A DNA stretch of 64,000 nucleotides from Thermanaerovibrio acidaminovorans DSM 6589 (GTDB lineage: Bacteria > Synergistota > Synergistia > Synergistales > Synergistaceae): contig NC_013522.1 of assembly GCF_000024905.1 (NCBI RefSeq), positions 1,364,001 through 1,428,000 on the forward strand, read 5' to 3'. Below, one piece after another: positions 39,830-45,645 of this stretch (position 1 is its first letter; each line of letters opens with the position of its first letter). The position numbers and the translations under genes were made by a program. The notes under the pieces were generated by a model. That model had not been told where the DNA came from, ran no database searches, and saw only the letters and a program-made list of their open reading frames with translations.

Positions 39830-39880
39830 TTGTTGGAACCGATGCCTTCTGTTTATAATGCCCCATTCGCTCATTTTCAA
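39830..39880. promoter_or_regulatory. Divergent promoter pair with overlapping -10 boxes
   Basis: On the minus strand, TTGAAA (39875-39880) and TATAAA (39852-39857) are 17 nt apart and face lepB. On the plus strand, TTGTTG (39830-39835) and TATAAT (39854-39859) are 18 nt apart and face the thioredoxin-like gene. The two -10 boxes share the same TTTATAAT, so the promoters cannot both be occupied at once. Confidence 0.75.
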
Positions 39881-39908
39881 GTTCGACAACATAAATGGGG
39901 GTGTTCCG

Positions 39909-40349
39909 GTGAGGATCTTGGGAATCGTGATGTCCGTCTTCGCCCTCATCTCCCTGGGCTACGGGGCGGGAGAGGTGATGGCCCAGAGGGGCCAGCAGCG
40001 GGCCCATGTCCAGCTCGATGGAACCTATGCGGAGGTGATCCTGTTAAGCCCCGACGGGTACTGCCCGTCCTGCCGGAGGCTGAGGGAGCGGCTCAAGGGG
40101 GCCATGGCGGGGGAGCTGGGGGACCTGATCCTCAGGGGATCCGTCCGGGTGCGGGAGGTATCCTGGGGGGACGGGGCGGTCCAGCTGATGGAGCGGCACC
40201 ATCTCCCGGAGGGGGGGCTACTGCTCCTGGGGCCCGGCGGCAAGGGAATCCCCCTCAGGGACCCATACGGCCACCTGGACAGCCAGGGGGACTTCGACCG
40301 GTACCTGATGGGGCACCTGTCCCGCCTCCTTGGGGGTGTCAACCGGTGA
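39909..40349 (+). CDS. Membrane-anchored thioredoxin-like protein with CPSC motif
   Basis: This 146-residue protein has an N-terminal hydrophobic segment (signal peptide or anchor, about 3-22). A short thioredoxin-like part carries a CxxC redox pair in DGYCPSCRRLRERL. A single acidic/glycine-rich tail follows. The start is GTG at 39909 after a GGGGGTG site; the ATG at 39858 lies on the promoter -10 and is unlikely. The next gene, a CcdA/DsbD-like membrane protein, overlaps by 4 nt. The pair probably forms an extracytoplasmic thiol-reducing system. The target is unknown. Confidence 0.75.
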   Translation: MRILGIVMSVFALISLGYGAGEVMAQRGQQRAHVQLDGTYAEVILLSPDGYCPSCRRLRERLKGAMAGELGDLILRGSVRVREVSWGDGAVQLMERHHLPEGGLLLLGPGGKGIPLRDPYGHLDSQGDFDRYLMGHLSRLLGGVNR

Positions 40350-41002
40350 TCTCCCCCCTCCATCTTGGGCTATTCGCCCTGCTTGGAGCCACGTCGTCCC
40401 TCATTCCCTGCGGGGCGGTGTATCAGCTGGCCGCCGCCTTCGCGGTGCTGGGGGGCGGCTCAAGGGGGCATCTCTGGCGGGCCGGGGCCTACCTGGCGGC
40501 CCGGGGGGCGGCCCACGGCCTCATGGGGCTCGCCATCTCCGCCCTGGGGGCCCTAAGCCTTCCGATCCTCCTGGTCCAGAGGGCCGCAGGTCCCCTGCTG
40601 ATCCTCTCCTCCTGCGCCATGCTCAAGGCCCTCCCATGGCTTGACATGAGGCCCCTGGCGGAGCGGGGGGCCCGGGCGGCGGGGTCTGGGCACCTGGGGG
40701 CCGCCGCGGCGGGGATCCTGCTCTCCCTGGTGCCCTGCCCGGAGGGGGCAGCGGCGCTCTTCGGGGCGGTGATCCCCCAGGCGGCCAGCATGGGACCCGT
40801 GGGGGCCCTGCTTGGGGCCATGGCGTTCGGCCTGGGTAGCGGGTTGCCCCCGGTGCTCATGGCGGCGGGGCTGAGGCTACTGCCCCCGGGCCTTGAGGGG
40901 TGGATCGCCCGGAGGGAGGGGAAGATCAGGACCTGGGCGGCGATGGGCCTCATGGGGATAGGGCTTTACATGACAATGGCTCACGTGTATCATTTGTTTT
41001 AG
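40346..41002 (+). CDS. CcdA/DsbD-like transmembrane electron-transfer protein
   Basis: This 218-residue protein has about six membrane helices in two similar halves. Each half opens with a Pro-Cys motif (SLIPCGAVYQL near 20; SLVPCPEGAAAL near 130), the pattern of CcdA and of the DsbD membrane domain. These carry electrons from cytoplasmic thioredoxin across the membrane. The start is GTG at 40346, overlapping the thioredoxin-like gene by 4 nt. A TauE/SafE-type carrier is a less likely alternative. Confidence 0.72.
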   Translation: MISPLHLGLFALLGATSSLIPCGAVYQLAAAFAVLGGGSRGHLWRAGAYLAARGAAHGLMGLAISALGALSLPILLVQRAAGPLLILSSCAMLKALPWLDMRPLAERGARAAGSGHLGAAAAGILLSLVPCPEGAAALFGAVIPQAASMGPVGALLGAMAFGLGSGLPPVLMAAGLRLLPPGLEGWIARREGKIRTWAAMGLMGIGLYMTMAHVYHLF

Positions 41003-41037
41003 ATTACGGGCTTTAGTCGGATCGAACCTTGACACAT

Positions 41038-41160
41038 CACGGGGGAGCTCCTGATCTGGGGCTGAGAGTGCGGGAGGACCCGCAGACCCTTCGAACCTGA
41101 GCGCCCAAGGGGCGCTGTCGCGGTTTAGCGGCACCGGTTAATACCGGCGCAGGGAGGCCC
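41038..41160 (+). ncRNA. TPP riboswitch (THI element) with enlarged J4/5
   Basis: The aptamer core is clear: GGGG at the P2 start, CTGAGA at 41062-41067, ACCCTTCGAACCTGA at 41086-41100, GGTTAATACCGGCG at 41136-41149 and AGGGA at 41151-41155. An ordinary variable hairpin (GTGCGGG...CCCGCA) follows CTGAGA. Unusually, 33 nt forming two hairpins (41101-41115 and 41116-41133) are inserted between ACCTGA and the P5 helix, where relatives have only one or two bases. It controls thi4-thiC according to thiamine pyrophosphate level. Confidence 0.93.
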
Positions 41161-41193
41161 TTCGCAAGAAGAGAGCGGTTCAAGCCGATGGAT

Positions 41194-41240
41194 AAGGCCG
41201 GGCCGCCTTCCACAACGGAGGGCGGCTCGGCCTTCCTCGT
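41194..41240 (+). terminator. Terminator of the TPP riboswitch expression platform
   Basis: AAGGCCG (41194-41200) pairs with CGGCCTT (41228-41234). Inside it GCCGCC pairs with GGCGGC, and the short TTCC/GGA extension closes the loop. A weak pyrimidine run (CCTCGTTTC) follows. It lies between the aptamer and thi4, so ligand binding likely favours termination. Confidence 0.75.
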
Positions 41241-41300
41241 TTCATCCCCGGCCCCGCCCCAGCCTCCCTGGGTCGTATCAAGCGAAAGGAGATGGTGAGC

Positions 41301-42095
41301 TTGGAGCTGGACGAGCGGAGGATATCGGCGGTGATCGTAAGGAGGTTCATGGACAGGCTGCTGGACTCCATGGACCTGGACGTGGCAATAGTGGGGGGAG
41401 GTCCCGCCGGCCTGGTGGCGGGTCACAACCTGGCCCGGGAGGGGTTCAAGGTGGCCATGTTCGAGCGGAAGCTGTCCCTGGGGGGAGGCATGTGGGGGGG
41501 CGGCATGATGTTCAACCAGATAGTGGTCCAGGAGGAGGGGGCCCAGGTGCTCCGGGAGTTCGGGGTCCGGGTCCTGGACGAGGGGGAGGGCTACTACTCC
41601 GCCGACTCGGTGGAGGCGGTGAGCACCCTCATCTCCTCCGCCACCCGGGCGGGGCTGAGGGTCTTCAACTGCGTCACCGCCGAGGACGTGACCATGCGGG
41701 AGGACCGGGTGGTGGGCCTCGTTATCACCTGGACCCCGGTGGAGATGGCGGGGCTTCACGTGGACCCCTTGGCGATCCGGAGCCGGTTTGTAATAGACGC
41801 CACCGGACACGACATAAACGTGGTCCGGGTGGTGGAGCGCAAGGTGCCCGGCAAGCTCATGACCCCCACGGGCCGGGCGGAGGGGGAGAAGTCCCTCTGG
41901 AGCCACCGGGCGGAGGAGCTGACGCTGGAGAACACCCGGGAGGTGTTCCCGGGGCTCTACGTGGCGGGCATGTCCGCCAACGCCACCTTCGGCGGTCCCC
42001 GGATGGGCCCCATCTTCGGGGGCATGCTCCTGTCGGGGCGCAAGGCGGCCCAGCTGGTCTCCCGGGCGCTGAGGGGCCAGGGTGGTCGAGGATGA
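41301..42095 (+). CDS. thi4: Thi4-type thiazole synthase, histidine (sulfide-using) form
   Basis: This protein of about 264 residues makes the thiazole half of thiamine from NAD, glycine and a sulfur source. The FAD/NAD-binding motif [29 protein letters not shown] and the C-terminal [15 protein letters not shown] are typical. The sulfur-donor cysteine of yeast-type suicide enzymes is replaced by His ([10 protein letters not shown], near residue 170), as in archaeal catalytic Thi4 that uses free sulfide. Start: AAAGGAG ends at 41291, so TTG 41301 (9 nt) fits better than ATG 41292 (0 nt) or GTG 41295. Confidence 0.93.
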
Positions 42096-43378
42096 TGACC
42101 CTGATTGACAGGGCCCGGGAGGGGGTCATGGACCCCATCTTCCAGAGGGCCTGCGCTGGTGAGGACGTGGGGCCCGAGGAGCTGGCCCGGCTGGTGGCGG
42201 AGGGGCTGGCGGTGATCCCCTACAACCCATCGAGGGGTTGCGCGAGGCCCGTGGGGATCGGCCAGGGGCTTAGGACCAAGGTGAACGCCAACATAGGCAC
42301 CTCAAAAGATCAGAGCTCGGTCCAGATGGAGCTTCGGAAGCTCAAGGCGGCGGTGGGCAACGGGGCCCACGCGGTGATGGACTTGAGCACCGGGGACGAC
42401 GCGGGGGAGGTCCTCCAGGCGGTGCTCTCCCATTCCCCGGTGCCGGTGGGAACCGTGCCCATATACCACGGGGCGGTCATGTGCCGGCTCTCCGGCAGGC
42501 CTGTGGTGGACATGACCGAGGACGAGATGTTCCAGGCGGTGGAGCTCCACGGGAGGATGGGGGTGGACTTCGTCACGGTGCACACCGGTCTAACCCGCCA
42601 GGCCCTGTCGCACCTGGTGGACCAGGGGCGCCTCACCGACATAGTGAGCCGCGGGGGCTCCATCATGGCCGCCTGGATGATCCACCACGACCGGGAGAAC
42701 CCCTTCGCCCGGGACTTCGGCCGGCTACTGGAGATAGCCCGGCGGTACCAGATGACCCTGAGCTTAGGCGACGGGATGAGGCCCGGATCGGGGCACGACG
42801 CCACCGACCGGGCCCAGGTGGCGGAGCTACTGGAGCTGGGACGCCAGGTGGGGGCCTGCCGGGAGGCGGGGGTCCAGGTGATGGTGGAGGGCCCCGGTCA
42901 CGTGCCCCTGGGGCAGATAGGGGCCAACGTGCAGCTTCAGAAGAGGCTCTGTCAGGGGGCCCCGTTCTACGTGCTGGGTCCCCTGGTGACCGACTCAGCG
43001 GCGGGCTACGACCACCTGGTGGGGGCCATAGGGGGTGCGGTGGCCGCCTCCTTCGGGGCGGACTTCCTCTGCTACGTGACCCCCAAGGAGCACCTGGGGT
43101 TCCCCGACGAGGAGGACGTGGCGGAGGGAGTCAGGGCCTCGGTGGTGGCGGCCCACGTGGGGGACCTGGAGAAGGGGATCCGCTCCGCGGTCCGACGGGA
43201 CATGGAGGTGTCCCGGGCCAGGAGGGCCATGGACTGGGACGCCCAGAGGGAGGCGGCCCTGTTCCCCTGGAAGTTCGACCGGGTGACCGGCATGTCCAGC
43301 CAGGGCTGCGCCATGTGCGGCCCCCTCTGCGCCATGAGGATCGCCCAGGAGGCCCTGGGATCTTGGAAAAAGGTCTGA
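42092..43378 (+). CDS. thiC: Phosphomethylpyrimidine synthase ThiC (short form)
   Basis: This 428-residue radical SAM enzyme turns aminoimidazole ribotide into HMP phosphate, the pyrimidine half of thiamine. It is the short form without the N-terminal extension of enteric Thi[30 protein letters not shown] and EGPGHVPL are conserved. The C-terminal cluster motif reads CAMCGPLC, that is C-x2-C-x3-C. The start (ATG ATG) overlaps the thi4 stop by 4 nt. Confidence 0.96.
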
Positions 43379-43878: not shown

Positions 43879-45522
43879 TCAGTCCTCGAAGCAGCTGCCG
43901 CCGATGAACTCCCGAAGGATGGATATGTTGGGCACGTCGTCGGAGGGGATGAAGGGCACGAACCTAAGCATGGAGAGGAGCCGCTGGGCCTCCCCGTAGG
44001 CGGGGGATTCCTCCGGCACGGACCTAAGGAGGGGCTCCGCGTAGCCCTTCAGCACCGGCAGCTCGTAGACCAGGGCGGTGTTGAACATCACGTCAGCCCT
44101 CTCCTGGTAGGGGAAGATGTGCCGGTGGGATCCCCGGATCACCGAGGGCCACATGAGGAGCGTGCTCTCCGGCGAGTGCCCCCTGACCCGGTGGTCCCGC
44201 ACGAGCCGCCTAAGAAGCCGGTTGTCGGTGGTGCTGGTCCTGTTGTGCCTGTCCAGGCTGACCCCCGTGAGGGGGGAGACGAAGATCTTGTACTTCGTCT
44301 CCTCCGGTATGGACCGGGTCAGCTTCTCGTTGAGGCCGTGGATCCCTTCTATTATTATCACGTCGTCGGAACCCACCTTGATCCTCTTCCCCTTCTTCCT
44401 GCGGCCGGTGAGGAAGTCGAACTTGGGGAGTTGCACCTCCTGGCCCTCCAGCAGGGCGGAGAGGTCCTGGTTTATCTGCTCCACGTCCAAGGCCTCCAGG
44501 GCCTCGAAGTCGTAGTTGCCGTTCTCGTCCCTTGGGGTCTTCTCCCGGTCCACGAAGTAGTCGTCCAGGGAGATGGCCACCGGCCGCTTGCCGCAGACCT
44601 GGAGCTGCACCATGAGCCGCCTTGCGGTGGTGGTCTTGCCGGAGCCGGAGGGCCCCGCCAGGCAAACCAGCCTCACGTCCGGCCGGTCGCATATCTCCCG
44701 GGAGACCCGGGCCAAGGCCTCCCCGTGGAGCGCCTCGGATATGAGGATCAGTTCCAGCCCCCTGCCGGAGGTCACCCTCTCGTGAATGCTGTCCATGGTG
44801 GTGACCCCCAGCACGTCCAGCCACTGGGAGTACTGGATGAACACCTCCGCCAGGCTCTTGGGGGCCTGAAAAGGGGGGATCCGGTCCGGGAAGGATATGG
44901 TGGGGAACTGGAGCACCATCCCCGGCGGGTAGTACAGCAGGTCGAAGACCTTCACCTGGCCGGTGTTGGACGCCAAGGGGGCGTAGAAGTAGCCGTAGGT
45001 GTCGGCGCAGCGGTAGACCACCACCGGGTCCATGGCGGTCCACTTGAGGAGCCGGGCCTTGTCCAGGTTACCCTGCCGCTCGAAGATCCCCTTGGCCCGG
45101 TCCAGGGGGAGCACCTCCCGGTTTATTGGGATGTTGAGGTCGATGAGGCGCTTCATCTCCCCCCTTATGGCCTCCACGTCCCCCTGGCTGGCCTCTCCCC
45201 CCACCAGCTCGCAGTAGTAGCCATCGCTCATGGAGTGCCGGATTATCACGTCCTGCCCCAGGGCCCGCTTGGAGGCCATGACCAGGAGGAAGCTCAACGT
45301 CCGCCGGTAGACCTCCATGCCCTCGAAGCTGCCGGTGTCCACGAACTCCACATCCGACGCCCCGTCGATAACCCAGCTGAGAGGCCTCAGGTAGTGGTTC
45401 ACCCGGCAGGCCACCACCTGGTGGGCCATCTCCGCCTTGGCCAGGGACAGAAGCTCCGCCCCGGTGAGGGGCATCTCACACTCGATGCTTCCAAACCCGG
45501 ATATGTTGACCTTGAACCCCAA
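43879..45522 (-). CDS. Uridine kinase-like P-loop protein with TGS/threonyl-tRNA-synthetase-like N terminus
   Basis: This protein of about 547 residues has three parts. An N-terminal TGS-like region (PLTGAELLSLAKAE) comes first. A middle region resembles the second additional domain of class II tRNA synthetases (EMAHQVVACRVN, RHSMSDGYYCEL). A C-terminal uridine kinase/phosphoribulokinase-type domain has P-loop AGPSGSGKTTTARRL, SLDDYFVDRE and EGIHGLNE. Such proteins occur in Thermotoga and clostridia; the substrate is unknown. The start is TTG 45522, with GGAGGGG 5 nt upstream. A longer frame reaches 45624 but lacks a ribosome site. Confidence 0.83.
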   Translation of the reverse strand: MGFKVNISGFGSIECEMPLTGAELLSLAKAEMAHQVVACRVNHYLRPLSWVIDGASDVEFVDTGSFEGMEVYRRTLSFLLVMASKRALGQDVIIRHSMSDGYYCELVGGEASQGDVEAIRGEMKRLIDLNIPINREVLPLDRAKGIFERQGNLDKARLLKWTAMDPVVVYRCADTYGYFYAPLASNTGQVKVFDLLYYPPGMVLQFPTISFPDRIPPFQAPKSLAEVFIQYSQWLDVLGVTTMDSIHERVTSGRGLELILISEALHGEALARVSREICDRPDVRLVCLAGPSGSGKTTTARRLMVQLQVCGKRPVAISLDDYFVDREKTPRDENGNYDFEALEALDVEQINQDLSALLEGQEVQLPKFDFLTGRRKKGKRIKVGSDDVIIIEGIHGLNEKLTRSIPEETKYKIFVSPLTGVSLDRHNRTSTTDNRLLRRLVRDHRVRGHSPESTLLMWPSVIRGSHRHIFPYQERADVMFNTALVYELPVLKGYAEPLLRSVPEESPAYGEAQRLLSMLRFVPFIPSDDVPNISILREFIGGSCFED

Positions 45523-45645
45523 CTGGACCCCTCCCCTGCCGGGCCCGATCCGGACCCATGATCGCTCACAAGGTGAATCTATTTGTAAGGATACCACGGA
45601 AGGTCCAACTTGGTAATTTTCCAACTATTCAAAACTAGCTCCCCA

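Follow-up and report, generated by a model that had tools for sequence, protein, structure and literature searches.

Can a TPP riboswitch carry 33 additional nucleotides inside its pyrophosphate-binding junction and still work, and if it can, what part do these nucleotides play? The question is raised by a leader in the genome of Thermanaerovibrio acidaminovorans, which consists of one contig of 1,848,474 bases. The 64,000-nt stretch of this genome that was analysed is called the window here. Between the end of a short upstream ORF (41002) and the start of thi4 (41292), the leader holds a TPP aptamer with two hairpins inserted at J4/5, and the thiamin genes thi4 and thiC follow it. The features of the locus, in window coordinates, are listed below.

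40965..40993, plus strand: candidate sigma-70-like promoter, TTTACA-17 nt-TATCAT (10/12 of the consensus; consensus match only)
41031..41172, plus strand: TPP riboswitch aptamer, whole extent (RF00059 cmscan, 31.3 bits, E = 2e-4; model R1, 120.4 bits at the same place)
41041..41067, plus strand: P2 5' strand, P3 hairpin and the pyrimidine sensor CTGAGA (41062-41067) (RF00059 alignment, relatives' alignment)
41068..41083, plus strand: optional P3a hairpin GTGCGGGAGGACCCGC (RF00059 alignment; 4/6 pairs doubly changed in 28 sequences)
41095..41100, plus strand: P4 5' strand and J4/5, ACCTGA (sequence; roles from PMC3764141)
41101..41115, plus strand: inserted hairpin H1, GCGCCC-AAG-GGGCGC, GCGCCCAAGGGGCGC (fold, alignments of relatives)
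41116..41133, plus strand: inserted hairpin H2, TGTCGC-GGTTTA-GCGGCA, TGTCGCGGTTTAGCGGCA (fold, alignments of relatives)
41134..41147, plus strand: P5, CCGG-TTAATA-CCGG, with L5 = TTAATA (sequence; pairing in 28 relatives)
41148..41155, plus strand: J5/4 and P4 3' strand, CGCAGGGA (sequence; roles from PMC3764141)
41194..41234, plus strand: intrinsic-terminator-like hairpin AAGGCCGGGCCGCC...GGGCGGCTCGGCCTT (strong, GC-rich, poor U-tract; kept in the congener G175)
41292..42095, plus strand: thi4, sulfide-dependent ADP-thiazole synthase (TIGR00292, 319.9 bits, cut-off 148.3)
42092..43378, plus strand: thiC, phosphomethylpyrimidine synthase (TIGR00190 / NF009895, above cut-off)

The locus, the aptamer and the inserted hairpins

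The candidate promoter sits within the 3' end of the upstream ORF, and both of its hexamers are also present in the alignment with the congener. Upstream of the riboswitch there are two tandem ORFs (39858-41002). One encodes a small protein with a CPSC motif that looks thioredoxin-like by eye and has no NCBIfam match, and the other an apparent membrane protein with a weak match to an ArsG-family transporter (42 bits against a cut-off of 200). On the minus strand at 43879-45624 lies a gene for a 581-aa protein with a long N-terminal part and a uridine-kinase-like domain at residues 318-515 that scores below the curated cut-off.

The identification of the element as a TPP riboswitch, made in the initial annotation from the letters alone, is borne out by the RF00059 match, the core bases and the thi4-thiC genes downstream. 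A scan with the Rfam THI covariance model, which that annotation had named as a check, recovers the aptamer at 31.3 bits; the gathering score, an operational cut-off and not a structural feature, is higher, at 54.3 bits. The interval first assigned to the element, 41086-41155, lies inside the aptamer but covers only part of the 41031-41172 found by cmscan. In E. coli thiM numbering, U59, G60 and A61 correspond to 41098, 41099 and 41100, and C77, G78 and A80 to 41148, 41149 and 41151. G60, C77 and G78 line the pyrophosphate site, and U59-A80 is a pair of P4 (PMC3764141). The ligand-contact bases (CTGAGA, U59, G60, C77, G78 and A80) are all present in the sequence of the aptamer, its P2, P3, P4 and P5 are in the TPP arrangement (98-100% paired in 28 relatives), and L5 carries the UAAU of the putative P3-docking loop. 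The view that all other conserved core bases are kept is therefore correct as regards the ligand-binding core; it does not clearly extend to P1, where 4/5 pairs are non-standard in the Rfam alignment and the helix is weak or unrecognisable.

In the two-hairpin copies of Synergistota generally, P1 can hardly be made out (41003-41040 and 41156-41180 in the window), and in the G108-G111 group a separate hairpin, CTGTTTC-GTAAGA-GAAACAG, stands immediately 5' of P2. A duplex test for P1 had no power, as canonical copies look like shuffles in it; the idea that loss of P1 is tied to gain of the insert was dropped on this ground.

The insertion itself consists of 33 nt at 41101-41133, between ACCTGA and P5 on the 5' strand of J4/5, with GAACCTGA (41093-41100) directly 5' of it. 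It was described correctly from the start. Folded alone, the 33 nt form exactly two hairpins at -20.0 kcal/mol, whereas dinucleotide shuffles of the insert average -12.8 kcal/mol (sd 2.1; z = -3.5) and none of 200 is as good. The hairpins have no linker, H2 abutting both H1 and P5, and the spacing from G60 to G78 is 50 nt, not 18. Relatives had been expected to have 1-2 nt, UC or similar, at this point; canonical copies in Synergistota are indeed short there, although they have one nucleotide, usually T.

Conservation and recurrence of the two-hairpin form

The collection of relatives, likewise proposed as a check, showed both hairpins kept in the congener and in other phyla. The congener has the orthologous leader, with 1 of 83 core positions changed relative to the window as against 11 of 33 positions changed in the insert plus 3 gap columns, and its insert keeps two hairpins, with H2 longer by three pairs. 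The third genome of the genus (G174) is without the riboswitch and without thi4, a pattern consistent with the entire locus being lost or absent. Among 19 Synergistota genomes with thi4, 5 have the two-hairpin switch; in two further genomes of the phylum (G017 and G018), which have no thi4 match, the two-hairpin switch stands before thiC, and the insertion in Synergistota is not strictly tied to thi4. Two thi4 homologues (G182:C1:1930415-1931206 and G011:C1:852777-853562) have one stop codon in the match, TAG and TGA, respectively, which may just be the match end. Four genomes of the phylum (G137, G138, G167 and G170; loci L045, L047, L048, L053 and L055) carry a pair of TPP aptamers, one on each strand and some 65 nt from each other; these belong to divergent thiamin units that have a switch apiece.

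Covariation supports both inserted helices. In a MAFFT alignment of 12 two-hairpin aptamers, made with no use of structure, 98% of H1 and 96% of H2 pairs are standard, 3/5 and 5/7 of them, respectively, are doubly changed, and sliding the partners by 1-3 columns lowers total pairing from 94% to 36-58%. With R1, a covariance model made from these 12 aptamers, seven genomes among 188 of Synergistota reached 104-120 bits, and none of the other TPP switches listed exceeded 66 bits. The inserts of G108, G109 and G111, which were left out of its building, have a new sequence and the same fold: GCGTG-TGAT-CACGC and TGTCGTC-..-GACGACA (GACGATA in G109). Scans with R1 of the classes around Desulfotruncus and Thermoleophilia brought further members; L169-L171, L197, L199, L200 and L215, also outside the model's building, have other sequences and keep both hairpins. 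In 28 model-aligned sequences, H1 (five modelled pairs) is 99% paired with 4/5 doubly changed and H2 (seven modelled pairs) 98% paired with 5/7 doubly changed, giving double changes in 9/12 pairs; this alignment was fitted to the model structure and so leans toward it, which the 12-sequence alignment does not. The original argument that the conserved core speaks for a working switch is much strengthened by this covariation across three phyla. Because the same pair of hairpins is retained by relatives from three phyla, the sequences indicate that the two-hairpin form is very likely a working, recurrent variant.

A pattern scan of 84,980 species genomes (GAACCTGA, a gap of 20-50 nt and the P5/J5-4 signature) yielded 66 loci; about 50 of these proved to be true aptamers in which the insertion directly follows ACCTGA. 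Some 16 of the 66 were discarded, mostly for GAACCTGA overlapping CCTGAGA or for a second ACCTGA following at normal spacing, and locus L111 for a run of N. The two-hairpin type occurs in a Synergistaceae MAG, Desulfotruncus, a Peptococcaceae MAG and many Thermoleophilia/Actinomycetota, so that the architecture spans Synergistota, Desulfotomaculum-type Bacillota and Thermoleophilia. One-hairpin types were found in Paenibacillus, Dethiobacter, Hydrogenibacillus, Aquicultor, Sumerlaeota, Thermincola and cyanobacteria, much smaller insertions occur at the same J4/5 point, and J4/5 insertions also recur in other Synergistota. The genes behind insertion loci elsewhere include thiC and thi4, recognised by similarity to the window's proteins, and thiD, thiG, thiM and thiT, recognised by reading translated proteins. 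Among 398 sampled Bacillota genomes, 206 have the normal-spacing pattern and 5 newly drawn ones a genuine insertion, ten more insertion genomes being already known from the scan, and the draw may be biased. The insertion recurs, yet it is uncommon, at roughly a few percent. The initial annotation had regarded a large insertion at J4/5 as unexpected, but an exceptional status finds no support: since insertions at exactly this point recur across lineages, the site is permissive, though uncommonly used.

In Thermoleophilia (L072, L080, L086, L087, L092 and others), the presumed Shine-Dalgarno sequence AGGGAG is the P4 3' strand. The start codon about 10 nt downstream of AGGGAG suggests translational control in these copies, with the aptamer directly occluding the ribosome site.

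Switching and the place of the insert

Behind the aptamer, the terminator-like hairpin at 41194-41234 was not reported by a simple terminator scan of the window; relatives in Synergistota and Bacillota have clear intrinsic terminators in this position, several with U-tracts. Leaders of ten relatives were folded up to the end of the terminator 5' arm, using an energy model for free RNA. In these truncated folds the arm pairs with core strands, the P4/P1 3' side or the linker, and in none of the ten leaders is there measurable pairing of the arm with the insert. In the window's own truncated fold, part of the arm's pairing is internal or with the linker, and pairing with the aptamer is not clear. 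H1 and H2 remain folded in the truncated leaders, except that H1 is disturbed in the predicted apo fold of the congener. A part for the insert in an antiterminator was rejected, as the terminator arm has negligible pairing mass with the insert in every one of the ten leaders.

We consider it likely that the element is a functional TPP-responsive OFF switch of thi4-thiC acting by termination, and that the two-hairpin module is peripheral, forms a four-way junction and keeps its fold with and without TPP, outside the switching. The insert is read as peripheral because the terminator arm never measurably pairs with it and H1 and H2 mostly stay folded. In the scheme that we infer for TPP binding, P4-P5 stacking geometry and OFF logic, bound TPP would lock the pocket together with P2 and P4, and the terminator would form from the GC-rich hairpin downstream. 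Without TPP, the core aptamer strands would rearrange and could pair with the terminator 5' arm, allowing transcription to go on; the insert is predicted by the folding to remain folded in this antiterminated state. After A61 and before the first pair of P5, the insert would branch off the 5' strand of J4/5 as two abutting hairpins, so that P4, H1, H2 and P5 make up a four-way junction that would still allow P4 and P5 to stack across the pocket. H1 and H2 would fold on their own as an outward-pointing module at the outer face of the pyrophosphate-sensor arm, with no switch role, and the ordinary TPP-dependent rearrangement would be unchanged.

A more active part for H1 and H2 within the aptamer is conceivable but, in our estimation, rather unlikely. 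The hairpins might contact P3, L5, the pocket or another factor and thereby tune affinity, folding speed or the need for Mg2+. The retention of the linker-less architecture across the three phyla, with the junction-side stems best kept, and the one C-G pair per hairpin that is invariant in 28 sequences are consistent with such a part. However, the hairpin loops differ in sequence and length among species, the same site accepts one-hairpin and much smaller insertions, and genomes with the insert also have canonical copies that lack it.

It is improbable that a reshaped pyrophosphate pocket senses a different ligand, such as TMP, HMP-PP or thiazole phosphate. Such a change would suit the location of the insertion in the pyrophosphate-binding junction and its control of precursor-synthesis genes here, in a genome that also has two canonical TPP switches, but the pyrophosphate-side bases G60, C77, G78, U59 and A80 are all unchanged and thiamin genes of every kind, thiT and thiM included, occur behind the insertion. 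A decayed, non-functional riboswitch that has acquired an insertion would account for the low Rfam score and the P1 that is hard to recognise; we hold this to be very improbable in view of the near-identical core in the congener despite 33% change in the insert, the covariation and the retained operon and terminator. That a small mobile or palindromic repeat landed in J4/5 by chance is barely credible: the GC-rich palindromes resemble REP elements, as judged from their sequence, but they have no second genomic copy beyond chance matches of 14-21 nt, and other phyla have the same architecture in a different sequence.

Detection and comparison with known systems

At 31.3 bits against a gathering score of 54.3, the aptamer is missed by routine annotation, and a default Rfam scan of the window returned a tRNA only. 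The low score is due to a local stretch of the RF00059 alignment into which 44 nt are put, against 12 nt in the consensus; the two canonical TPP switches elsewhere in the same genome score 72 and 67 bits. Over 49 insertion genomes, insertion copies mostly score 27-53 bits, and all but three of about 55 fall below the gathering score, the three long matches that pass reaching 54.6-55.7. These sub-threshold scores are attributable to the insertion. In 27 of the 49 genomes nothing passes the gathering score, so that the organism appears to be without any TPP riboswitch, which exposes an annotation blind spot. A similar situation exists for fungal TPP riboswitches with an extended P3, where RF00059 likewise misses genuine members and custom covariance models recover them; the fungal extension, however, is in P3, remote from the pyrophosphate junction, whereas that of the window is in J4/5 (PMC11683625).

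Few riboswitches are as widespread as those for TPP, and the spacing over the pyrophosphate junction has been described as conserved, as in fungal TPP riboswitches with their 18-nt G-G spacing across J4/5 (PMC5882874), a rule from which the window aptamer departs with its 50 nt. The recurrent, covariation-backed insertion indicates that J4/5 tolerates opening and lengthening of its 5' strand, and gives RNA engineering and structural studies a natural site for grafting. Among the open-access papers searched, we found no description of a J4/5 insertion in TPP riboswitches. Less probably, J4/5 could be a natural grafting site at which a two-hairpin module conserved in three phyla forms a four-way junction that preorganises the pyrophosphate pocket and alters ligand affinity or kinetics, which would define an undescribed structural subclass having a function of its own.

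The window aptamer shares with RF00059 the helices P2, P3, P3a, P4 and P5, CTGAGA, U59/G60/C77/G78/A80, the UAAU of L5 and the association with thiamin genes, and differs from it in the 33-nt two-hairpin J4/5 insert, the score of 31.3 bits and the poorly recognisable P1. In those parts of Barrick and Breaker 2007 (PMC2258182) on which we draw, riboswitches in general are said to tolerate stem-loop insertions, and genuine low-scoring matches with insertions at unusual positions are noted; the optional TPP element described there is P3a, predicted to stack coaxially on P2, and the same parts make no mention of J4/5 of TPP riboswitches. Like the new element, P3a is an optional peripheral hairpin adjoining a binding junction. 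P3a, however, belongs to the pyrimidine-sensor arm, whereas the new element consists of two hairpins on the pyrophosphate-sensor arm.
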